A DNA stretch of 64,000 bases. It comes from Leptospiraceae bacterium. GTDB taxonomy: Bacteria; Spirochaetota; Leptospiria; Leptospirales; Leptospiraceae. The notes under the pieces are model-generated. The model saw nothing but the letters and a program-made list of their open reading frames with translations, had not been told where the DNA came from and ran no database searches. Below, in pieces: positions 1,393 through 17,172 of this stretch (position 1 is the first letter of the stretch; every line of letters starts with the position of its first letter). The stretch spans positions 62,001 through 126,000 of the forward strand of contig JAKRSH010000014.1 of NCBI GenBank assembly GCA_022402465.1, read 5' to 3'. Both the position numbers and the translations under genes were made by a program.

Positions 1393-1701
1393 TTGATTTT
1401 GTTACTTGATCCAACTAAAGCATCTACCAAAATTTCCTATACTATTCTACTTTTATTATCTGTATTTTTCTCTCAACAAGCTTGCTCCGATGGGAAGAAA
1501 TCGAAACCCATAGAGAAAGCTGAAATACAAATTGACAAAGAGAGATGTACACTTCGTCCTAATCCTGGTCCTTGCAAGGCTATGTTTACTGGTTATTATT
1601 ACAATCATTCCAAAACGTCTTGCCAAGAATTTGTTTATGGAGGTTGCCAAGGCAGTCTCCCTTTTAAAACTCTAGAAGATTGTGAAAAAAGCTGTCTATG
1701 A
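1393..1701 (+). CDS. Predicted lipoprotein with a Kunitz/BPTI-type protease inhibitor domain
   Basis: Hydrophobic leader then QQAC (lipobox-like); C-terminal CTLRPNPGPCKAMFTGYYYNHSKTSCQEFVYGGCQGSLPFKTLEDCEKSC with cysteine spacing C-x8-C-x15-C-x7-C-x11-C-x3-C. Confidence 0.88.
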   Translation: MILLLDPTKASTKISYTILLLLSVFFSQQACSDGKKSKPIEKAEIQIDKERCTLRPNPGPCKAMFTGYYYNHSKTSCQEFVYGGCQGSLPFKTLEDCEKSCL

Positions 1702-3016
1702 TTTTATCTTCCCTGATCCGCTAGTATTTCGTTTTTTTCATCTAACACTACTTAATCTAATATCAAATCTATCCATTCCCTTAGTTGGAATTGCAGATAC
1801 CATCTTTTTGGGGAGATTTACAAGTTCTGAACATATAGCTGGAGTTGCCCTTGGTATCGTGCTTTTTGAATATCTGTATTGGGGATTATCCTTTCTCAGA
1901 ATGGGAACAACTGGAACTACTGCAATACAAACTGGACTTGGAAATGAACTTGGCGTACAATTAGTACTACTTCGCTCCATAATCATTGCACTTATTTTAG
2001 GAATAACAATTGTAATTCTGTCTCCATGGATAGAACAACTAGGTTTTACACTACAAGTTGGCGATGATCGAATTAAGACGATTGGAATATCTTATTTCCG
2101 TTCGCGTATTTGGGATGCTCCTTTTACCTTGATGAATTTTGTGATAGTTGGTTGGCTTCTTGGAAAAGCAAGAAGCGATCTTGTTCTCATCGCTATGATC
2201 ACAGGAAATCTTGCAAATATTCTTTTAGATTATCTCTTCTTAAAAGAGTTAGGAATGCAAGCTGATGGAGTTGGCCTAGCTTCTGCCTTAGCGCAGGTGA
2301 TTCAATTTCTATTATCTTTGATTCTAGTTCGAAATGTATTTTCCAATCTAGTCGAAGCACTAAGTTTCAAATTAGTCTTAAAAAAAAGAGAATTCCTAAG
2401 TCTACTTTCTTTCAATAAAGATATATTTATACGAACCGCTTTTCTCATTGTAACATTTTCTTTGTTTCGAAATTTTTCATCTTCCATTGGCGTATCTACT
2501 CTTACTGTTAACTCTATTCTTTTTCAATTTATGTTGGTCTATGCTTTTTTCATCGATGGTTCAGGCTATGCTATTGAAACTTTGGCTGGTGATTTATTTG
2601 GAAGAGGAAAGATTGCTGAAGTAAAGAAATTAATTCGAATAGGCTTGAGTTTCTCTTTTTTGGTTGCTGCAAGTTTAGTATTGATATTGTCTATTTTTCC
2701 TGTACAGATTGTAACAATAATATCCAAAGAGGCAAATCTAGTTCATGATTTAATTGATATGCTTCCTTGGGTTTACCCTGTACTTTTTCTAGGTGGCTTT
2801 GCTTTTGTTTATGATGGATTATTTCTTGGACTTGTAAAAGGTAAAATTCTACGCAATTCTATGATTCTAAGTTCTATTCTCTTTTTTCTACCTGTAGCAA
2901 TTCTTGGGTTGTATTGGAAATCCAATCCTATCATATGGATTTCTATGAGTACTTATATGCTAGGAAGAACAATCACACTTGCTTATTCTGCTAGGACAAT
3001 TCTATGCACCACATAG
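1682..3016 (+). CDS. MATE family efflux transporter (DinF-like)
   Basis: 444 aa polytopic membrane protein; N-terminal NLSIPLVGIADTIFLGRF typical of MATE/DinF. Overlaps the Kunitz ORF by 20 nt. Confidence 0.82.
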   Translation: MKKAVYDFIFPDPLVFRFFHLTLLNLISNLSIPLVGIADTIFLGRFTSSEHIAGVALGIVLFEYLYWGLSFLRMGTTGTTAIQTGLGNELGVQLVLLRSIIIALILGITIVILSPWIEQLGFTLQVGDDRIKTIGISYFRSRIWDAPFTLMNFVIVGWLLGKARSDLVLIAMITGNLANILLDYLFLKELGMQADGVGLASALAQVIQFLLSLILVRNVFSNLVEALSFKLVLKKREFLSLLSFNKDIFIRTAFLIVTFSLFRNFSSSIGVSTLTVNSILFQFMLVYAFFIDGSGYAIETLAGDLFGRGKIAEVKKLIRIGLSFSFLVAASLVLILSIFPVQIVTIISKEANLVHDLIDMLPWVYPVLFLGGFAFVYDGLFLGLVKGKILRNSMILSSILFFLPVAILGLYWKSNPIIWISMSTYMLGRTITLAYSARTILCTT

Positions 3017-8773: not shown

Positions 8774-11173
8774 ATGGCAAACCCTACAGAACTCAACGAA
8801 GAAGATTTTTTGAAAGAAACATTTGAAGGAAGTTCAAATGGAATTTCGCAGGGTTCTGTTTATATTTTTTCACCTGATAGTCTTGGCTCCTTGAATCCTA
8901 CCGCAAGAGCCATCATGGATGAATTGAAAGATTGGCACAAAAGAGTCAAAGCACATGGTTCTAAAGAAATCCATCCATCTTATTTACTCACTCTAGATAA
9001 AGTTCCCGAAGCTCTCAACAAATTCAATAATCTTTCTGTTCAGAATAAGACGGAAGCGGCGATACACCTAGCTTTGAAACAAATTATTGACTTTGATAAA
9101 CGAGGTCAAAATCGGGTTGCATATATTTACCCATTTCTTGTACGAAATGGAAATAAAATTACTTCCAAAATCTCAATTATCTCTCCTCAAATTGAATCCA
9201 AAACAGATGTTATACCCTACAGGCAAGCTTGCCTAAGAGCATCCCAGGAATTAATTGACATGATTCTTTCCCATCGTGCCAAGAAGATACGAATTGTAGA
9301 TGAAGACACACCTGGTGCTTATTTATTCGCGAAAACAAAAAATGAAGAGTCATGGCTCTTTCCTAAACTAGCCTCCTTAGATTCTGAAATATCGAATTTA
9401 GTTAGAAAAGGTTTTGCACCTGTTCCACCTATTCCAATTCCTGAATTTACTGAAGATGTAATTCATTATGCGAAGGAACAGAAGTCTGTAGTTCAAATCC
9501 TACCCGATTACCACATTATTGTCGATGAACTAGAATTAAATGAAGATGGTTCTTTCAAGAGACAACCAGAAATAATCAATCAATATAGATCTCAAGTTGA
9601 TGGTTTAGAAAAGTTTATCGAAACCCATTTAAGAAAACTTGCAACAGAAATAAAATACGATTCGTACATCGAGAGAATGAATGAATTTCATGCTCAACAT
9701 GTTGTGGCAGTCGCTCATGGTAGAAGGCAGAATTCAGATAAAGCAAAAGCAATGATTGAATTGGTTGAATCTTTTCCATTTGAGAAAGCAACTTCCAATT
9801 ACGGTAAAAGAATCAAAGAAACTACCGACCTATCTATCAAAATTCTTAAAAAACTTTTAGTAGAAAAGGATCAAATCTTTGATCGCAAAGATGAATCTGT
9901 TTATGTAAAAATCCGTAAGCAAGTCATGGATAGAATTCCTGAATATACTAAGAATAATAATGTCCTTATGAAAATTGATTTCCCAGAAGAAATTGTTAAG
10001 ATGGGAATCAAAGAAGAAAAGCGTATCGAAGATCTTTCAAATCGTTTAAAGAATGATGTTACGGAAAAATTTTCATACCACGAATTCAAAAAAGAGAATG
10101 GGGATTCTATTTTTTATGTTGTCGACCATGGCTATATGTCTGCCGTATTGCATAAGTTAACTGCACATGCGAATGATAGCCCTGAATACAAAAGACAGCT
10201 TGATATTGCCAAAATCATCAATGATAAGCTATCCAATCCCAAGCATCCAGAACTAAATAGTAAACTCAGGCCTGAAATAATTGTTAAACTAAGTTCTGAT
10301 ATGCGTGAAATGGACAGAACGCACCAAGAAAAAATTCGAAACCAAGAGTTTCAAAAGAAAATAAATATACCAGCAGGTTTATTGAGTTTTACAGCTTCTA
10401 TATTAATTTTTGTAACCGCTTCTTACTACTTAAGGAGTCTAGTTCCAGTTGTCTTTGGTGTTCCCTTTTCTACTATAATAGGTGTTATGGCAGCCTACTT
10501 CTTCCGAGAAAAAAGCAATGATGAATTAAGAGCAGAAGTTTTGGCTTCAGGTAAATTTGGAACATTGGGCATAGATCATCATTCTTCTGGAACGGGAAAT
10601 TTTGGAATGATAGATATGCCAGGTGACAAAGCTGGTAGCGGAGGATTCTTTGGAACCTCTTCTTCTAAAACTGGGTCAACTTCTTCCTCAAAGGGCGATA
10701 CCATGGTATCGGAATCCAATGAAAAGAAAGAAGCTAAAATCTTGGATATTCTTCGTGCTGCGGATGGATTGGTTTTTCCTAAAAAATTTAATAAGATCAC
10801 TGAAAAAGTCATGGATCTCAAAACAATGAGAAAGAAAATATATGGTTCTCTAAAGGATATTCGTCGAAGAAACTTAACTATGAGTAAAGAAAGAGACGAT
10901 AATAAAGTAGCATCTACTGTAGAATTTGCCTTGGTTCAATCCAGTGCTATTATAAATTTTCCTGATGAAATCGCGATTAAAACTATGCCTAACACATTAT
11001 ATGTACTAAAGCATGATTTAAAGTCACCTTTATTTCGTGAACAGTTAGCTGATTCATATAGAGAAGAAATGAATAAGAAGAAGTTTGACAAAAAATTGGT
11101 AAAATACTATACTTTCTTAATTAATACGATTGAAATGGAATATTTCAAATATCTACCCAAGAAAAAGCTTTGA
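8774..11173 (+). CDS. Hypothetical 799-aa protein with a central hydrophobic membrane segment
   Basis: Long ORF 4 nt after avtA; hydrophobic segment IPAGLLSFTASILIFVTASYYLRSLVPVVFGVPFSTIIGVMAAYFF; no family recognised. Confidence 0.85.
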   Translation: MANPTELNEEDFLKETFEGSSNGISQGSVYIFSPDSLGSLNPTARAIMDELKDWHKRVKAHGSKEIHPSYLLTLDKVPEALNKFNNLSVQNKTEAAIHLALKQIIDFDKRGQNRVAYIYPFLVRNGNKITSKISIISPQIESKTDVIPYRQACLRASQELIDMILSHRAKKIRIVDEDTPGAYLFAKTKNEESWLFPKLASLDSEISNLVRKGFAPVPPIPIPEFTEDVIHYAKEQKSVVQILPDYHIIVDELELNEDGSFKRQPEIINQYRSQVDGLEKFIETHLRKLATEIKYDSYIERMNEFHAQHVVAVAHGRRQNSDKAKAMIELVESFPFEKATSNYGKRIKETTDLSIKILKKLLVEKDQIFDRKDESVYVKIRKQVMDRIPEYTKNNNVLMKIDFPEEIVKMGIKEEKRIEDLSNRLKNDVTEKFSYHEFKKENGDSIFYVVDHGYMSAVLHKLTAHANDSPEYKRQLDIAKIINDKLSNPKHPELNSKLRPEIIVKLSSDMREMDRTHQEKIRNQEFQKKINIPAGLLSFTASILIFVTASYYLRSLVPVVFGVPFSTIIGVMAAYFFREKSNDELRAEVLASGKFGTLGIDHHSSGTGNFGMIDMPGDKAGSGGFFGTSSSKTGSTSSSKGDTMVSESNEKKEAKILDILRAADGLVFPKKFNKITEKVMDLKTMRKKIYGSLKDIRRRNLTMSKERDDNKVASTVEFALVQSSAIINFPDEIAIKTMPNTLYVLKHDLKSPLFREQLADSYREEMNKKKFDKKLVKYYTFLINTIEMEYFKYLPKKKL

Positions 11174-14100
11174 ATTTTACAATCCTCTCATTTTTTACTA
11201 AAATCTTAATATTCATTATTTTCATTTCAAATTATAATTTGTTAGCTGAGGACTTCAGCGACCTAGAGGAAACCAGAGTTAAAGTTTATGGATCAGAAAA
11301 AGATAAAAAATATCGTTTAGATGGCTTTTTTATAGAGTGGGAGAATTGGCCCAGAGAAAATCCAAGCCACAATCATTTTCATTTTTTTTGGTTTGCAAAC
11401 ACTACCAATTATCCTAAATTCAAAAAGAATCAAGTATTTCCTTTTTTTTCAAATATAGAAAGCAAGATAGATCCAAGAAAATCAACGAATTATCTACTCT
11501 TATATAACTCTAGTGTTGATCGTGACAAAAATGAAACTACTATCTTATTTCCTTTTTATTTTGCTGGAAATAGCTCAATCAATAATTCAAATTATCTGGG
11601 AATTTTTCCTTTCTTTTACAAGAGTAATAAGAATTTAAATTCTTATAATGAAAGTAAATTACTTCTACCTGGATTTTATAAAACTGCAGAGAATGATTTT
11701 AAAAATAAAGAATCCTCTAAATTTATAATTTCCCCTTTCTATGTTTCTAATTCATCCAAGTCCCAAGATATAGAATATTCAAAATCCTGGTTCCCAATTA
11801 TTCCATTCTATTATACAGCAGAAGATAATAAGAATAAGCATAATAATATTATCTGGCTATTAGATACGAATCACAATAAATTGACTGAAAAAATTGATAG
11901 ATTTTGGTTCTTACCAATCTTTTATTGGAAAAAAGAGGAATACTTAAATATATTTCCTCTTTATTTCAATAAACTATCTAAGACTGAAGATTCTAATGTT
12001 TGGTTCGGAATTATTCCTCCGATTTACAGAAGTTATTCGCCCAATCATTCGACTTTTTACTTTTTAAATTTCTACAAATCTACCCAAAAGATATCCACTA
12101 CGAAAGATTCTTTTACAACATTCTTTCCATTCTATTTTCACTCTAATAATAATCAAAATGAATCTTTCACTCTATTCCCGATTTTATATCTAAATCAAAA
12201 AGATAAGGATTCTTCTTCTCACACCAATCTTTTGCTTTTATATGATCATGGCTTAGATAAAGATAGCAATCTCAATAGATTGTGGTTGATGCCGTTTTAT
12301 TTTTATAAAAAAGATATTTACAATTATATTGTTCCTTTCTTTTTTCAAAATTCTAATAAGAACAAGCAACAAAATGAGATTTCTTCTAATTCATGGTTTG
12401 GAGTTCTTCCACCTATTTATAGAAGCTATTCTCAAAACCATTCTACATTCTATTTAATAAATTTTTTTACATCAAACAAGAAAGATAAATCTAAAGAAGA
12501 GAATGTTACAATTTTCTTTCCATTTTATTTTGATTCAAATAATTCATTGAATGAATCAATGACTTTTATTCCTCTTCTTTATTTCAACAATCGTGAGACA
12601 AATTTAAAATCTCATACTAATGTTTTGCTAGCATATGACCATTCCCTAGACCAAGAAGGAAATTTAAATCGCTTATGGATAATGCCTTTTTATTTTTACA
12701 AAAAAAACTCCTATCAATATATTGTTCCTTTCTACTTCGGAAATGATGAGTCGACACAATTTCAAGATAGTACAACATGGGGACCATTTTATTACATAAG
12801 GAAGACTGAGTCAGTTCATGAGAAATATTTTCTATTGTACTACGAAAGCCAAGAGAAGGGAAAATTTATTGACTCTCATCTAACAAATATTTTCCCATTT
12901 TTCTATTCATGGGATACTAAAACTAGCAAAGTAATACAAGCAAGGACTGAATTCAATAAAGGATTCTATCTTTTTCCAATTTTTTATAGAAATGAAAACA
13001 CGAACAGGGAAACCTATTCTAACTTAGTCGGACTAGTAAGTTGGACCAAGGATAATAAAGACGAACTGATTCAGAATACTATCTTTCCTGTTAGGTTTTA
13101 TAAAAAAGATTCATATTCAATATGGTTTCCTTTTAGTTTTCAATTTTGTAAAACTGAAACATCTTCAGAGACTGGAAAAAGATGGGGAGCTTTCTTTTAC
13201 TCAAGTTGGTCACCCGAAGAAGAAAAATTTTGGATATTCAACTATTACTCCTACCAAGATAAGAAGAAAGATTTGCATTCTAAAACTTTTTTCCCGATCT
13301 ATCATTCGTGGAAAAAAGAAAATTCTAATGGCACTTTAGTTTTTCCATTTTATATAGATGCAGATTTTCGTGATGAGAAGGATAAAGATAAATTTAATAA
13401 TTTTAATTTAAACATCTTAGGCATAGCATCCCAAACATCCAAGGGAATTTTTCAACCTAGCTTTTCATTTGATGGAGGAAAAAAATCCAAATACTACTAT
13501 TTAGATACAGATATATCATGGTTGTATTATGCATTTCGTATCTCCAATCGAACTAGCAATAAGTTTATTAAAGATTTATTGCCTGGAGAAAAGCCAGATC
13601 CTTCGAGTTTAGGATTAATAACAAGCTCAGAAGATTCAAAGTCACCGCGAGTCAATTCAAAGAAATCTTTTACTCGAGAAGATTCATTTAATTTCATTGG
13701 TGTGAATGTACTTTTTGGAGTATTTGGTTATGAGGCAGCCGATACACAACGTCACATTCGATTGCTCCCACTTGCTTGGTTTACATACGATACAGAAGTA
13801 GATGAGAATATTTATGCAGGTCCTTTACCCTTACCCTTTGTTTGGTATTCATCGGCTAACCTTAAGTATAGAGTAATTTTTCCTATCTATGGATACCAAA
13901 ATTCCGAGGACGCAGAAAGACATTCCTATGGATTATTTATTTTCTTAAAGGAAGCATTGGTTGAGAATAACACACAGGAAACTTCTGTGGTCTGGCCATT
14001 TATCAATTGGCATGAATCTGACATTAAGTCAGGTTCAAGAGTCTTGCCTTTTTATTGGCAGAGAACCTCGAAAGAAGAGAAAGAAATATCTGATTCCTTA

Positions 14101-17100
14101 ATTATTCCTCTTGGTTTGACCTACTTAAATAAAACAACTAACAATCAAAATATTTCTACTAAAACATGGATTTCACCATTTTTGTTTAGGAATGACAGTC
14201 CCTACGAAGATGGAAAGATCGAGAGAATTTATTCGCCTTTTGCCTTGTTTTATTGGAGTAGCACTCTCACATCCAAAATAGAAGATAAAGTTTTTCTTTC
14301 ACCGATTTTTTTCAATTTTGCAACAAAACAAAAGGATAACAAGCAGACTCAATTTTCAAATTTTTGGTTGGTACCTATTATAGGATTCGAATCTGAATCG
14401 AATGATGATTATTGGTTGAACTATTTTATTTTTTACAATAAATCAAAATCTGCTAAGGAAGACAGCATAACAATATTTCCTTTATATAGTGAAACGAATC
14501 AATACAATAAAAGTGAATTAGTAAATCAGTCTAACTTTTACTTCCCATTATTTCCTATACTAACTAGTTATAAGCCGATCCATTCTGAGAATACTAAAGA
14601 GCAATTCAGAATAATTTCTCCTTTCTTGTTTTCTACTTCAATCAAAACCAAAGAAGAATCATTATACCGAGAACAACTCTATCCTATTCCTTTATTTTAT
14701 TCTGAATTTGATAAATCAAGCGATACAAATTTTTATAGTTTATTATTGCTATTCCAGTTTGAATCAAAGCCTACAGAAGAAGTATATAGAATATTTCCAA
14801 TTCTACAGCTATCGAATCATACAGTTCAAACAAATTCAACAAGACAATCGAGGAATTGGATCCTGCCTTTGTATTGGAAATCAAATTATGAATACCTCGA
14901 TAAGAACCTAAAGCAAATTGAAGAAAAGAAATTCATATCGCTTCCCTATGCATCCTTTTCTTCCAAAGAAAGCAAAACAATAGTAGTTCCACCGCTTCTT
15001 TATTATTCAAGATCCAATAATAAAGAAAATTTCCAAAGTATATTTTTCTTAGCAAATCACACAGAGAATGAAGAATTTGAAAGTTATAATTTCTTTCCTT
15101 TTTATCATTACTTTTCTACAAAACCAAGCTTGGGTAAGTCTTCAGAAATTGATGAGAAGATAAATACAAATGATAAACTATCTTTAAATCAAAAGTCCAA
15201 CAAGAATCCAAGGAAAGACGATTCAATTCTTGCACCAAATATACATTATGTGAATCGACTCTTTCCTTTTTACTCATACAAAACGAAAGATACAAATTCT
15301 GGCACACCTGTAAGTAAAGAATTCTTAAGTATCTTTTATACCTTAAGTTCAGAATATAATAAAAGTGGTGAATTAGATAATTCCATATACTGGATACCTC
15401 CTCTATTGTACTCAAATGAAAGAAATCAAATTGGTTCAGAATGGACTTGGCTATTTTTCATTCGATCAAATTCCAGTGCAAATTCTAACTCGATGCAAAT
15501 TTTTCCAATATTTCATACTTCAACTTCTACAGAAAAAAATATCATTCAAAATAAAAATTGGTTATTTCCTATTTACTATTTTAATACAGAAGTATCAACT
15601 AAGAATGATAATATCGAAAGCTTAACAATTTTACCATTTTTGTTGTACTATTCAAGCTCAGATAAAGATGAAGAATACTACAATTGGATGTTTATCGCCA
15701 ATTATAAAAATTCGAACAAATCTAATTCAGTCAATTTCTTTCCTCTCTATCATTATTATTCAACGAATCCAAGTTATAAAGGAGAACAAGAATACAACAA
15801 TAGATTTATTCCTTTTTATTCTTATTCATCTAAGACAAGTGCAGATGGCAAACCAATCGAGACTAATTTCCTAAGCTTATTCTATGCGAGTGCATCAAGC
15901 TATAATGAGAAGGCTGAATTAAACTTATCAAAATTCTGGATTCCATTTGCTCTCTACTCTCAGCAGCATACTCCCGGTTCATCGGAATGGACTTGGCTAT
16001 TTTTCATAAAATCAGAATCATCAGCAAGTAAAGATTCATTTAATATTTATCCTATCTATCATTCTTCTTCAAGTAAAGAAATTGAAGCTAATAAATCAAA
16101 AAACTGGTTCTTTCCTCTTTATTTTTATACTTCAGAACAATCGAAGGATCTTACAAACAAATCTAAGCAACAATCAATAAATACAAAGTTAAAATCTAAT
16201 GAAAATAAATTATTGAATAATGAAATCGATTCAAAACTATTTGTTTCATTATTTTTTAGATACTCATCCTATTTAAAGTCAAAACAAAAGGATGATTACT
16301 ATACATCTCTTTCCTTTCCTATTATACCCCTCATATACAGTGAATCTAGTTTAGATTCTTCTCATCTAAATTTATTCTACCTCTTCGATCGCAAAGTAGA
16401 AGAAGACCAATTGACTCGTTTCTTTCTTTTTCCATATTACTATGAAAATGATGATCCTAAAAATACTAAATCTACATCCTACCATCATTTGATTCCATTT
16501 TATTTTTCAGGAATTGATGATGAGGAATATTCAGCATTTATCACTGGTTTGTATATTAATTCTACCAAAAGAAGTACTTATAAAAATTTCTTATTCCTTC
16601 TTGAGCAAGAAAGCTATAAAGATATATCCGCTTTTGAATTCAATTTATTATTTAGAGCTTTACATTATGAAACAACAGATTCAACATCCAATTTTAAATT
16701 CATCTATGGTCTAGGGGAAGTCGATTTAAAAGAAAATCAAACGCAAATGAATTTAGCTTGGCTAGGCTATGAGAATACTTCAGAATCGAATTATTTAAAT
16801 CTTTTACCTTTGTATTATAAAGATGTTACAAAATCAAAAGATTTTGAATGGATTACTCCTTTACTGTACTTTTCAAAGATCAATCCAAAAGAAAAATTGG
16901 AACATTCTACTTTAGGACTTGTATATTATAATTCTGAAAATTTGGAAACTAAAGAGTCTTTACAAAGTGTTCTATTGGGAATACTTTATTACAAGACAGT
17001 GAAGCCTAAAGAAAGAGGTTACACAGGTAGAGGAAGTTTATGGGGAGCACTCTGGGAATACAATACAGAAGATGAAACGAATTATTCCAAATTTTCTATT

Positions 17101-17172
17101 CTTAAAATTCTCTATTCCCGAAGAGAAGATGACCAAGGCGTTCGACATAGAATTTTATTTTTAGAATTTTGA
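11170..17172 (+). CDS. Giant (2000 aa) secreted/outer-membrane-like repeat protein rich in FPFYY-type aromatic motifs
   Basis: TTG start overlapping the upstream TGA (TTGA); N-terminal signal-peptide-like FFTKILIFIIFISNYNLLAED; repeats such as WFGIIPPIYRSYS, FFPFYF, LNRLWLMPFYFYKKD, EWTWLFFI; C-terminus ...RHRILFLEF ending in Phe. Confidence 0.9.
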   Translation: MNFTILSFFTKILIFIIFISNYNLLAEDFSDLEETRVKVYGSEKDKKYRLDGFFIEWENWPRENPSHNHFHFFWFANTTNYPKFKKNQVFPFFSNIESKIDPRKSTNYLLLYNSSVDRDKNETTILFPFYFAGNSSINNSNYLGIFPFFYKSNKNLNSYNESKLLLPGFYKTAENDFKNKESSKFIISPFYVSNSSKSQDIEYSKSWFPIIPFYYTAEDNKNKHNNIIWLLDTNHNKLTEKIDRFWFLPIFYWKKEEYLNIFPLYFNKLSKTEDSNVWFGIIPPIYRSYSPNHSTFYFLNFYKSTQKISTTKDSFTTFFPFYFHSNNNQNESFTLFPILYLNQKDKDSSSHTNLLLLYDHGLDKDSNLNRLWLMPFYFYKKDIYNYIVPFFFQNSNKNKQQNEISSNSWFGVLPPIYRSYSQNHSTFYLINFFTSNKKDKSKEENVTIFFPFYFDSNNSLNESMTFIPLLYFNNRETNLKSHTNVLLAYDHSLDQEGNLNRLWIMPFYFYKKNSYQYIVPFYFGNDESTQFQDSTTWGPFYYIRKTESVHEKYFLLYYESQEKGKFIDSHLTNIFPFFYSWDTKTSKVIQARTEFNKGFYLFPIFYRNENTNRETYSNLVGLVSWTKDNKDELIQNTIFPVRFYKKDSYSIWFPFSFQFCKTETSSETGKRWGAFFYSSWSPEEEKFWIFNYYSYQDKKKDLHSKTFFPIYHSWKKENSNGTLVFPFYIDADFRDEKDKDKFNNFNLNILGIASQTSKGIFQPSFSFDGGKKSKYYYLDTDISWLYYAFRISNRTSNKFIKDLLPGEKPDPSSLGLITSSEDSKSPRVNSKKSFTREDSFNFIGVNVLFGVFGYEAADTQRHIRLLPLAWFTYDTEVDENIYAGPLPLPFVWYSSANLKYRVIFPIYGYQNSEDAERHSYGLFIFLKEALVENNTQETSVVWPFINWHESDIKSGSRVLPFYWQRTSKEEKEISDSLIIPLGLTYLNKTTNNQNISTKTWISPFLFRNDSPYEDGKIERIYSPFALFYWSSTLTSKIEDKVFLSPIFFNFATKQKDNKQTQFSNFWLVPIIGFESESNDDYWLNYFIFYNKSKSAKEDSITIFPLYSETNQYNKSELVNQSNFYFPLFPILTSYKPIHSENTKEQFRIISPFLFSTSIKTKEESLYREQLYPIPLFYSEFDKSSDTNFYSLLLLFQFESKPTEEVYRIFPILQLSNHTVQTNSTRQSRNWILPLYWKSNYEYLDKNLKQIEEKKFISLPYASFSSKESKTIVVPPLLYYSRSNNKENFQSIFFLANHTENEEFESYNFFPFYHYFSTKPSLGKSSEIDEKINTNDKLSLNQKSNKNPRKDDSILAPNIHYVNRLFPFYSYKTKDTNSGTPVSKEFLSIFYTLSSEYNKSGELDNSIYWIPPLLYSNERNQIGSEWTWLFFIRSNSSANSNSMQIFPIFHTSTSTEKNIIQNKNWLFPIYYFNTEVSTKNDNIESLTILPFLLYYSSSDKDEEYYNWMFIANYKNSNKSNSVNFFPLYHYYSTNPSYKGEQEYNNRFIPFYSYSSKTSADGKPIETNFLSLFYASASSYNEKAELNLSKFWIPFALYSQQHTPGSSEWTWLFFIKSESSASKDSFNIYPIYHSSSSKEIEANKSKNWFFPLYFYTSEQSKDLTNKSKQQSINTKLKSNENKLLNNEIDSKLFVSLFFRYSSYLKSKQKDDYYTSLSFPIIPLIYSESSLDSSHLNLFYLFDRKVEEDQLTRFFLFPYYYENDDPKNTKSTSYHHLIPFYFSGIDDEEYSAFITGLYINSTKRSTYKNFLFLLEQESYKDISAFEFNLLFRALHYETTDSTSNFKFIYGLGEVDLKENQTQMNLAWLGYENTSESNYLNLLPLYYKDVTKSKDFEWITPLLYFSKINPKEKLEHSTLGLVYYNSENLETKESLQSVLLGILYYKTVKPKERGYTGRGSLWGALWEYNTEDETNYSKFSILKILYSRREDDQGVRHRILFLEF
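11995..12780 (+). repeat. Two tandem copies of a 393-bp (131-aa) unit inside the giant ORF
   Basis: NVWFGIIPPIYRSYSPNHSTFYFLNFYKS... from 11995 and NSWFGVLPPIYRSYSQNHSTFYLINFFTS... from 12388; NLNRLW[LI]MPFYFYKK recurs at the same 393-nt offset (12268 and 12661). Confidence 0.9.
15244..16140 (+). repeat. Degenerate duplication with 546-bp period inside the giant ORF
   Basis: The 23-nt string gaatggacttggctatttttcat occurs at 15439 and 15985 (546 nt = 182 codons); flanking protein similarity RLFPFYSYKTK...FLSIFYTLSSEYNKSGELDNSIYWIPPLLYS versus RFIPFYSYSSK...FLSLFYASASSYNEKAELNLSKFWIPFALYS. Confidence 0.88.

Follow-up and report, generated by a model that had tools for sequence, protein, structure and literature searches.

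A probable Kunitz lipoprotein of a Leptospiraceae bacterium and the sparse prokaryotic branch of the Kunitz/BPTI family around it

The 64,000-nt stretch of Leptospiraceae DNA analysed here (the window) encodes a protein that, judged by its profile match, cysteines, predicted fold and reactive loop, is a true member of the Kunitz/BPTI family, and a variant of it through a shortened loop and its anchoring. Kunitz domains are usually treated as animal proteins; what is new is the prokaryotic branch around this gene, which is scattered, recognisable and almost undescribed. The window protein itself is read, with a probability of about 0.6, as a Sec-exported, lipid-anchored, single-domain Kunitz inhibitor that would protect the cell envelope from the trypsin-like proteases of others, a reading drawn from the sequence, a structural model and analogy with known inhibitors.

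The gene and its neighborhood

The open reading frame at 1393-1701 of the forward strand runs uninterrupted to a TGA at 1699-1701 and specifies 102 aa when read from the TTG at 1393, the start given in the first-pass annotation. The frame stands; however, a start at TTG 1399, which would yield a precursor of 100 residues, appears more likely because the putative ribosome-binding site AGGAAA lies ~10 nt upstream of 1399 and only ~4 nt upstream of 1393. From its N-terminus, which contains Lys, the product runs through a hydrophobic stretch (ISYTILLLLSVFFSQQA) to Cys31, and from there through a charged linker to the Kunitz domain (Table 1).

Table 1. Features of the Kunitz gene, its product and the downstream gene (positions in the window)
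Feature	Position	Strand	Basis and remarks
Probable ribosome-binding site, AGGAAA	1385..1390	+	Read in the sequence; putative
Kunitz lipoprotein gene	1399..1701	+	ORF reading, from the more likely TTG start; PF00014, 54.1 bits, E=1.7e-14
Signal sequence, KISYTILLLLSVFFSQQA	1399..1482	+	Hydrophobic segment between the Lys residues and Cys31
Cys31, probable lipidated mature N-terminus	1483..1485	+	Invariant alignment column; -1 Ala acceptable
Charged linker, ~20 aa	1486..1545	+	Low model confidence: first two blocks at pLDDT 64-66
Kunitz domain, Cys52-Cys101	1546..1695	+	Pfam residues 51-101; AlphaFold2; Foldseek
Canonical reactive loop, G59-P60-C61-K62-A63 (P4-P1')	1567..1581	+	Alignment; P1 Lys62 codon at 1576-1578
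Shortened C4-C5 loop, QGSLPF	1648..1665	+	Lacks one residue relative to animal Kunitz domains; x11 in 75/77 prokaryotic domains
MATE-family exporter, GTG start	1682..3016	+	PF01554, 90 bits; overlaps the Kunitz gene by 20 nt

The Kunitz gene and the overlapping MATE gene are probably co-transcribed. The MATE neighbor provides no synteny in other genomes of the order, where its matches are distant. An Rfam search of positions 1000-2000 returned no match, and promoter and terminator signals in that interval did not rise above chance. The contig that holds the Kunitz gene is 236,928 bp long; valS lies to one side of the gene, and polA and leuS lie further along. The GC3 of the Kunitz gene, 0.238, differs little from the 0.227 of the MATE gene, so its composition fits the host genome. 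Contamination by animal DNA was considered and is ruled out by the length of this contig and the presence on it of valS and leuS, by the host-like GC3, by a second Kunitz copy elsewhere in the genome, and by the uninterrupted frame. Further along the window (8774-17172, forward strand) are two adjoining, overlapping long ORFs of 799 and 2000 aa, both without a Pfam match.

The Kunitz domain

With the Pfam Kunitz_BPTI profile (PF00014), whose cut-off is 21 bits, the C-terminal 50 residues of the protein score 54.1 bits (E=1.7e-14), well beyond what chance would give; the same profile gave zero matches in 14 control genomes. The six cysteines are spaced exactly x8, x15, x7, x11, x3, as described in the first-pass annotation, whose Kunitz assignment the profile search bears out. 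Sequence matches in the PDB were TFPI, SmCI, boophilin, bikunin, and BPTI. An AlphaFold2 model, built from 56 aligned prokaryotic domains, predicts the Kunitz fold: the domain has a pLDDT of ~92, with strands at E35-41 and E46-52 and a C-terminal helix, and these elements occur in the Kunitz order. When the model was compared with known structures by Foldseek, TFPI, textilinin, APPI, and BPTI were retrieved (E ~3e-5 to 5e-4), with a target TM mostly of 0.7-0.86 and an rmsd mostly of 1.3-1.6 Å. In such a fold, the three Kunitz disulfides would be expected to form.

Signal sequence and probable lipidation

A seventh cysteine, residue 31, ends the hydrophobic signal and is conserved in all four of the Leptospirales-type copies. 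In the window lipobox (FSQQA, then Cys) the Ala at -1 is acceptable, being one of the four residues common at this position in leptospiral lipoproteins (PMC2063517), and the Gln residues at -2 and -3 are unusual. As a group, the lipoboxes of the Leptospirales-type copies are weak: at -1 the window copy has Ala, the second copy of this genome Phe, L004 Thr, and L003 Gln or Cys. Clear lipoboxes, such as LLAGCQ and LISCSDDD, occur in many Bacteroidota and Alcanivorax relatives. A loose test found a Cys after or near the N-terminal hydrophobic stretch in 48/48 single-domain ORFs examined, the Cys picked for L004 and L067 not being the lipobox one. Because many of the Bacteroidota and Alcanivorax lipoboxes are plain, lipidation appears likely for the family and probable for the window protein, and the earlier description as a lipoprotein is kept at that strength. 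The mature protein may be exposed at the surface.

A shortened C4-C5 loop

The first five cysteines are spaced 8, 15, 7, 11 in 75 of the 77 prokaryotic domains, and the animal-like x12 is present in the other two, both from a single Chitinophagales MAG. All 58 non-redundant x11 representatives carry Pro at the C4-C5 gap, followed by Phe (Tyr once), where animal domains have Asn-x-Phe or similar. The x11 subfamily is defined in the present analysis by an 11-residue C4-C5 loop with the invariant Pro and then Phe or Tyr, and the window copy fits this definition. It lacks the animal-type spacing of 12 with Asn43, which is a family trait rather than a strict Kunitz criterion, and a one-residue gap stands in it opposite all animal domains aligned. 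Asn43 is a conserved core residue of BPTI, and in the window copy it has been lost together with the loop deletion.

The scan patterns did not include the C4-C5 loop, and the tblastn confirmation, which was queried with P0001, could favor x11. Searching with nothing but the Pfam model gave further matches in the Alcanivorax order, where each of the five intact domains read was x11; among the Bacteroidota, one of four new matches (L090) was x11, and L093 was a weak partial match. The remaining two, L091 and L092, represent a third, more divergent kind: lipoproteins with a C-loop YSGCSQ(R/K)GFAT and a C4-C5 stretch that is even shorter. The Chitinophagales MAG (L071, L072) has three large proteins, with open frames of 706-2037 aa, that together contain six Kunitz domains of the animal type; these domains score up to 79.9 bits and have x12 spacing in the four read. 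The proteins of this MAG make up a second kind of Kunitz protein in bacteria, different from the x11 type.

Distribution among prokaryotes

A PF00014 match is present in 3/30 genomes of the order; thus, the gene is not generally needed. In the phylum sample a match is present in 4/296 genomes, one of them weak and with a stop. A locus of another spirochaete (L005, G057:C98:2856-2975), at 22.3 bits and with an in-frame TGA, was set aside as either a decayed copy or a chance match. Scanning the collection with the single sequence P0001 yielded no confirmed relative; a four-sequence alignment was required, and with it 66 loci were found across 84,980 species. The bacterial loci belong to Bacteroidota, Fidelibacterota (Marinimicrobia), Campylobacterota, Alcanivoracaceae, spirochaetes, Roizmanbacteria, and Syntrophales-type and other delta-proteobacterial MAGs, and the archaeal loci to Methanophagales, Nitrosopumilus, and Woesearchaeota. 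Since isolates are among the carriers (Fibrisoma limi, Larkinella humicola, Hymenobacter busanensis, Maribacter arenosus, Croceitalea dokdonensis, Flagellimonas species, Alcanivorax hongdengensis, and Poseidonibacter lekithochrous), contamination cannot account for the whole set. Samples searched with the HMM alone gave matches in 6/396 genomes of Bacteroidota, 7/195 of the Alcanivorax order (one weak, with stops), and 1/150 of Campylobacterota, solely the genome on which that sample was centered. Kunitz genes in prokaryotes are widespread but sparse. Counting bacteria and archaea together, eight phyla or more hold relatives with the shortened loop.

A scan of plasmids, phages, and viral contigs found no Kunitz relative, and hence no mobile carrier was identified. 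A search for a neighbor common to several phyla found none; only within Flavobacteriaceae were neighbors conserved. In nine members of that family (L036, L037, L047, L051, L055, L056, L059, L063, L068), the Kunitz lipoprotein gene lies closely 3' of a lipoprotein gene of one family, in a conserved neighborhood; the L036 copy of the upstream protein matches the LVIVD repeat (PF08309), and this lipoprotein is a possible partner of the Kunitz protein. A single protein of the Saprospiraceae MAG-131 (L007:4395-5525) contains six x11 Kunitz domains, with K/E/K/E/K/R at P1, and resembles the multi-headed inhibitors of animals. Kunitz domains are also fused to DUF6438/DUF4377 in Nitrosopumilus (L024:4044-5168), to a kelch propeller and dockerin (L010), and to ankyrin repeats (L014).

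The Leptospiraceae genome itself carries a second, divergent Kunitz copy with its own signal sequence on another contig (G000:C42:103071-103223). The Kunitz domains of the two copies are identical at 24/50 residues, which indicates that they do not stem from a recent duplication.

The reactive loop

An inhibitory Kunitz loop requires Gly12, Cys14, and a small residue at position 16, and residue 15 selects the protease. The window copy carries Gly12, Cys14, and Ala16 as G59, C61, and A63. The GPCKA motif that the first-pass annotation compared to BPTI is present, but it spans P4-P1' (Gly12-Pro13-Cys14-Lys15-Ala16 in BPTI numbers) rather than P3-P1'. Gly12, Cys14, Gly36, Gly37, and Cys38 are invariant in 58/58 family representatives, and P1' is Ala in 55/58. 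P1, however, varies over the 58 (K22 R11 E9 D4 L3 F3 N3 Q2 M1), with Lys or Arg in 33 and an acidic residue in 13. A fixed loop with a varying P1 is what inhibitors adapted to different proteases would show, and it favors inhibition over a general binding role; the acidic P1 of roughly one member in five means that trypsin-like targets do not suit all of them. On this alignment the identity of GPCKA with the BPTI loop reads as one of several states at a site that varies and does not point to recent descent from BPTI, and a loop whose P1 can be K, R, E, D, L, F, N, Q, or M over the family is not "BPTI's own".

Proposed role and its alternatives

For the window protein to act as proposed, the precursor would be exported by Sec, cleaved before Cys31, and lipidated, leaving the ~20-residue linker to keep the Kunitz domain, with its disulfide bonds, clear of the membrane. 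The rigid G-P-C-K-A loop would enter the active site of a trypsin-like serine protease in the manner of a substrate, with Lys62 in the S1 pocket, and the job of the protein would be to shield the cell envelope from the proteases of protists, animals, or other bacteria. The presence of Lys (window copy) or Arg (second copy) at P1 makes trypsin-like proteases the likely targets, and the window protein is a probable inhibitor of trypsin- or plasmin-like enzymes. These proteases more likely come from outside the cell. A photolyase-related gene within the window (PF04244) hints weakly at a light-exposed, free-living life, which would make protists or other bacteria as plausible a source of the proteases as an animal host.

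The inhibitor might instead act on an envelope protease of the same cell, as one half of an inhibitor-protease pair. A periplasmic inhibitor would meet the cell's own HtrA proteases, and the genome encodes four S1-type proteins; the survey of own proteases covered PF00089 matches, and all four are of the HtrA/DegP type, with a PDZ-like tail and a GNSGG-like catalytic motif (GSSGG in one). However, HtrA/DegP proteases cleave after small hydrophobic residues, a preference unsuited to a P1 Lys; these proteases are found universally but the Kunitz gene only rarely, and no protease gene was seen adjoining either Kunitz copy. The self-protease that the first-pass annotation had listed among the possible targets is thus disfavored, and such a pair is quite improbable. 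A use of the Kunitz scaffold for binding, as a surface adhesion or assembly module without protease inhibition, is somewhat easier to entertain, though still unlikely. Some animal Kunitz domains have lost inhibition, prokaryotic relatives are fused to the kelch, dockerin, ankyrin, and DUF6438/DUF4377 domains described above, the acidic P1 of 13 representatives is compatible with such a use, and the LVIVD-repeat lipoprotein encoded upstream in the nine Flavobacteriaceae could be a binding partner. Yet a binding module would not need the inhibitor-specific Gly12, Cys14, and Ala16, which are invariant or nearly so, and the window copy has the BPTI state, Lys at P1 and Ala at P1'.

Phylogeny and origin

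It could also be argued that the gene was acquired directly and recently from an animal host and is aimed at host trypsin or plasmin. Kunitz domains are abundant in animals, and the window domain is identical to BPTI at 24/51 positions. For another bacterial Kunitz protein, host-to-bacterium transfer has been proposed by its authors (PMC11511053). Against this, the x11 loop with its invariant Pro also occurs in free-living prokaryotes of marine and soil habitats, both bacteria and archaea, and in none of the aligned animal domains, the nearest tree rows to the window copy are Bacteroidota and Fidelibacterota, and the frame is uninterrupted with a host-like codon bias; a recent animal source is therefore highly improbable. 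Nor does a reading of the acquisition proposed in the first-pass annotation as an isolated event agree with same-loop relatives in at least eight phyla, a second copy in the genome, and nearest relatives that are, for both copies, bacterial domains rather than animal ones.

The tree is based on 47 columns, and most of its forks are open; a single clade of x11 domains is not rejected (p-AU 0.41). The tree groups the window copy and a Flavobacteriales domain (93/86), and likewise the second copy and Sulfuricurvum (98/80). The different partners suggest, with the caution that so few columns demand, that the two copies arrived separately by transfer between bacteria. The common shortening of the loop is a better sign of common descent than this tree. 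The x11 subfamily is patchily distributed over bacteria and some archaea, probably as a result of horizontal transfer, and its origin lies either in an animal-to-bacteria transfer or further back. A more far-reaching proposal, which we put forward only tentatively and consider possible rather than likely, is that prokaryotes have a Kunitz lineage of their own, marked by the one-residue loop deletion, maintained in both bacteria and archaea, and displaying inhibitors with interchangeable P1 residues against the proteases of predators or competitors; such a lineage would have a long independent history and might predate the animal domains or be their sister. If so, Kunitz inhibitors would not be essentially an animal invention with stray bacterial copies.

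Comparison with known inhibitors

The window protein is like BPTI, TFPI, SmCI, and bikunin (PF00014; MEROPS I2) in its six cysteines, predicted fold, G-x-C-P1-A loop, and Pfam score. Unlike these animal proteins, it is probably a bacterial lipoprotein, its C4-C5 loop is one residue shorter, and a Pro-Phe motif replaces Asn43; many Bacteroidota domains differ further in having x2, not x3, between C5 and C6. Ecotin is a dimer of unrelated fold and offers a functional analogy only. In Salmonella it is an exported, periplasmic inhibitor that protects against external serine proteases (PMC11977995). Omp19 of Brucella, an outer-membrane lipoprotein with protease-inhibitor activity that guards the envelope (PMC6607954), is an analog in role; it has no reported Kunitz domain and is taken to be unrelated in sequence. 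Borrelia is also a spirochaete, and its ElpB and ElpQ are lipoproteins of the cell surface that block a host serine protease; however, they act as exosite inhibitors of C1s (PMC9637899) and differ in fold and mechanism. F6W77_19310 of Acinetobacter baumannii is likewise a Kunitz protein of a bacterial genome, but it has five domains (KABP1-5) and is described as secreted, not lipidated. Its domains inhibit human serine proteases with a specificity that depends on P1, P1 Arg being directed at factors Xa/XIa and P1 Leu at elastase (PMC11511053). In the literature consulted, which left most subscription journals outside its scope, this was the only published bacterial Kunitz case found.

Implications

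The shortened loop provides a natural variant, without the conserved Asn43, of a fold that is among the best studied in proteins. A prokaryotic branch with a fixed structural difference, a lipoprotein anchor, and a variable P1 makes the direction in which Kunitz domains have moved between animals and microbes testable. It also opens the testable question of which external proteases shape free-living bacteria.
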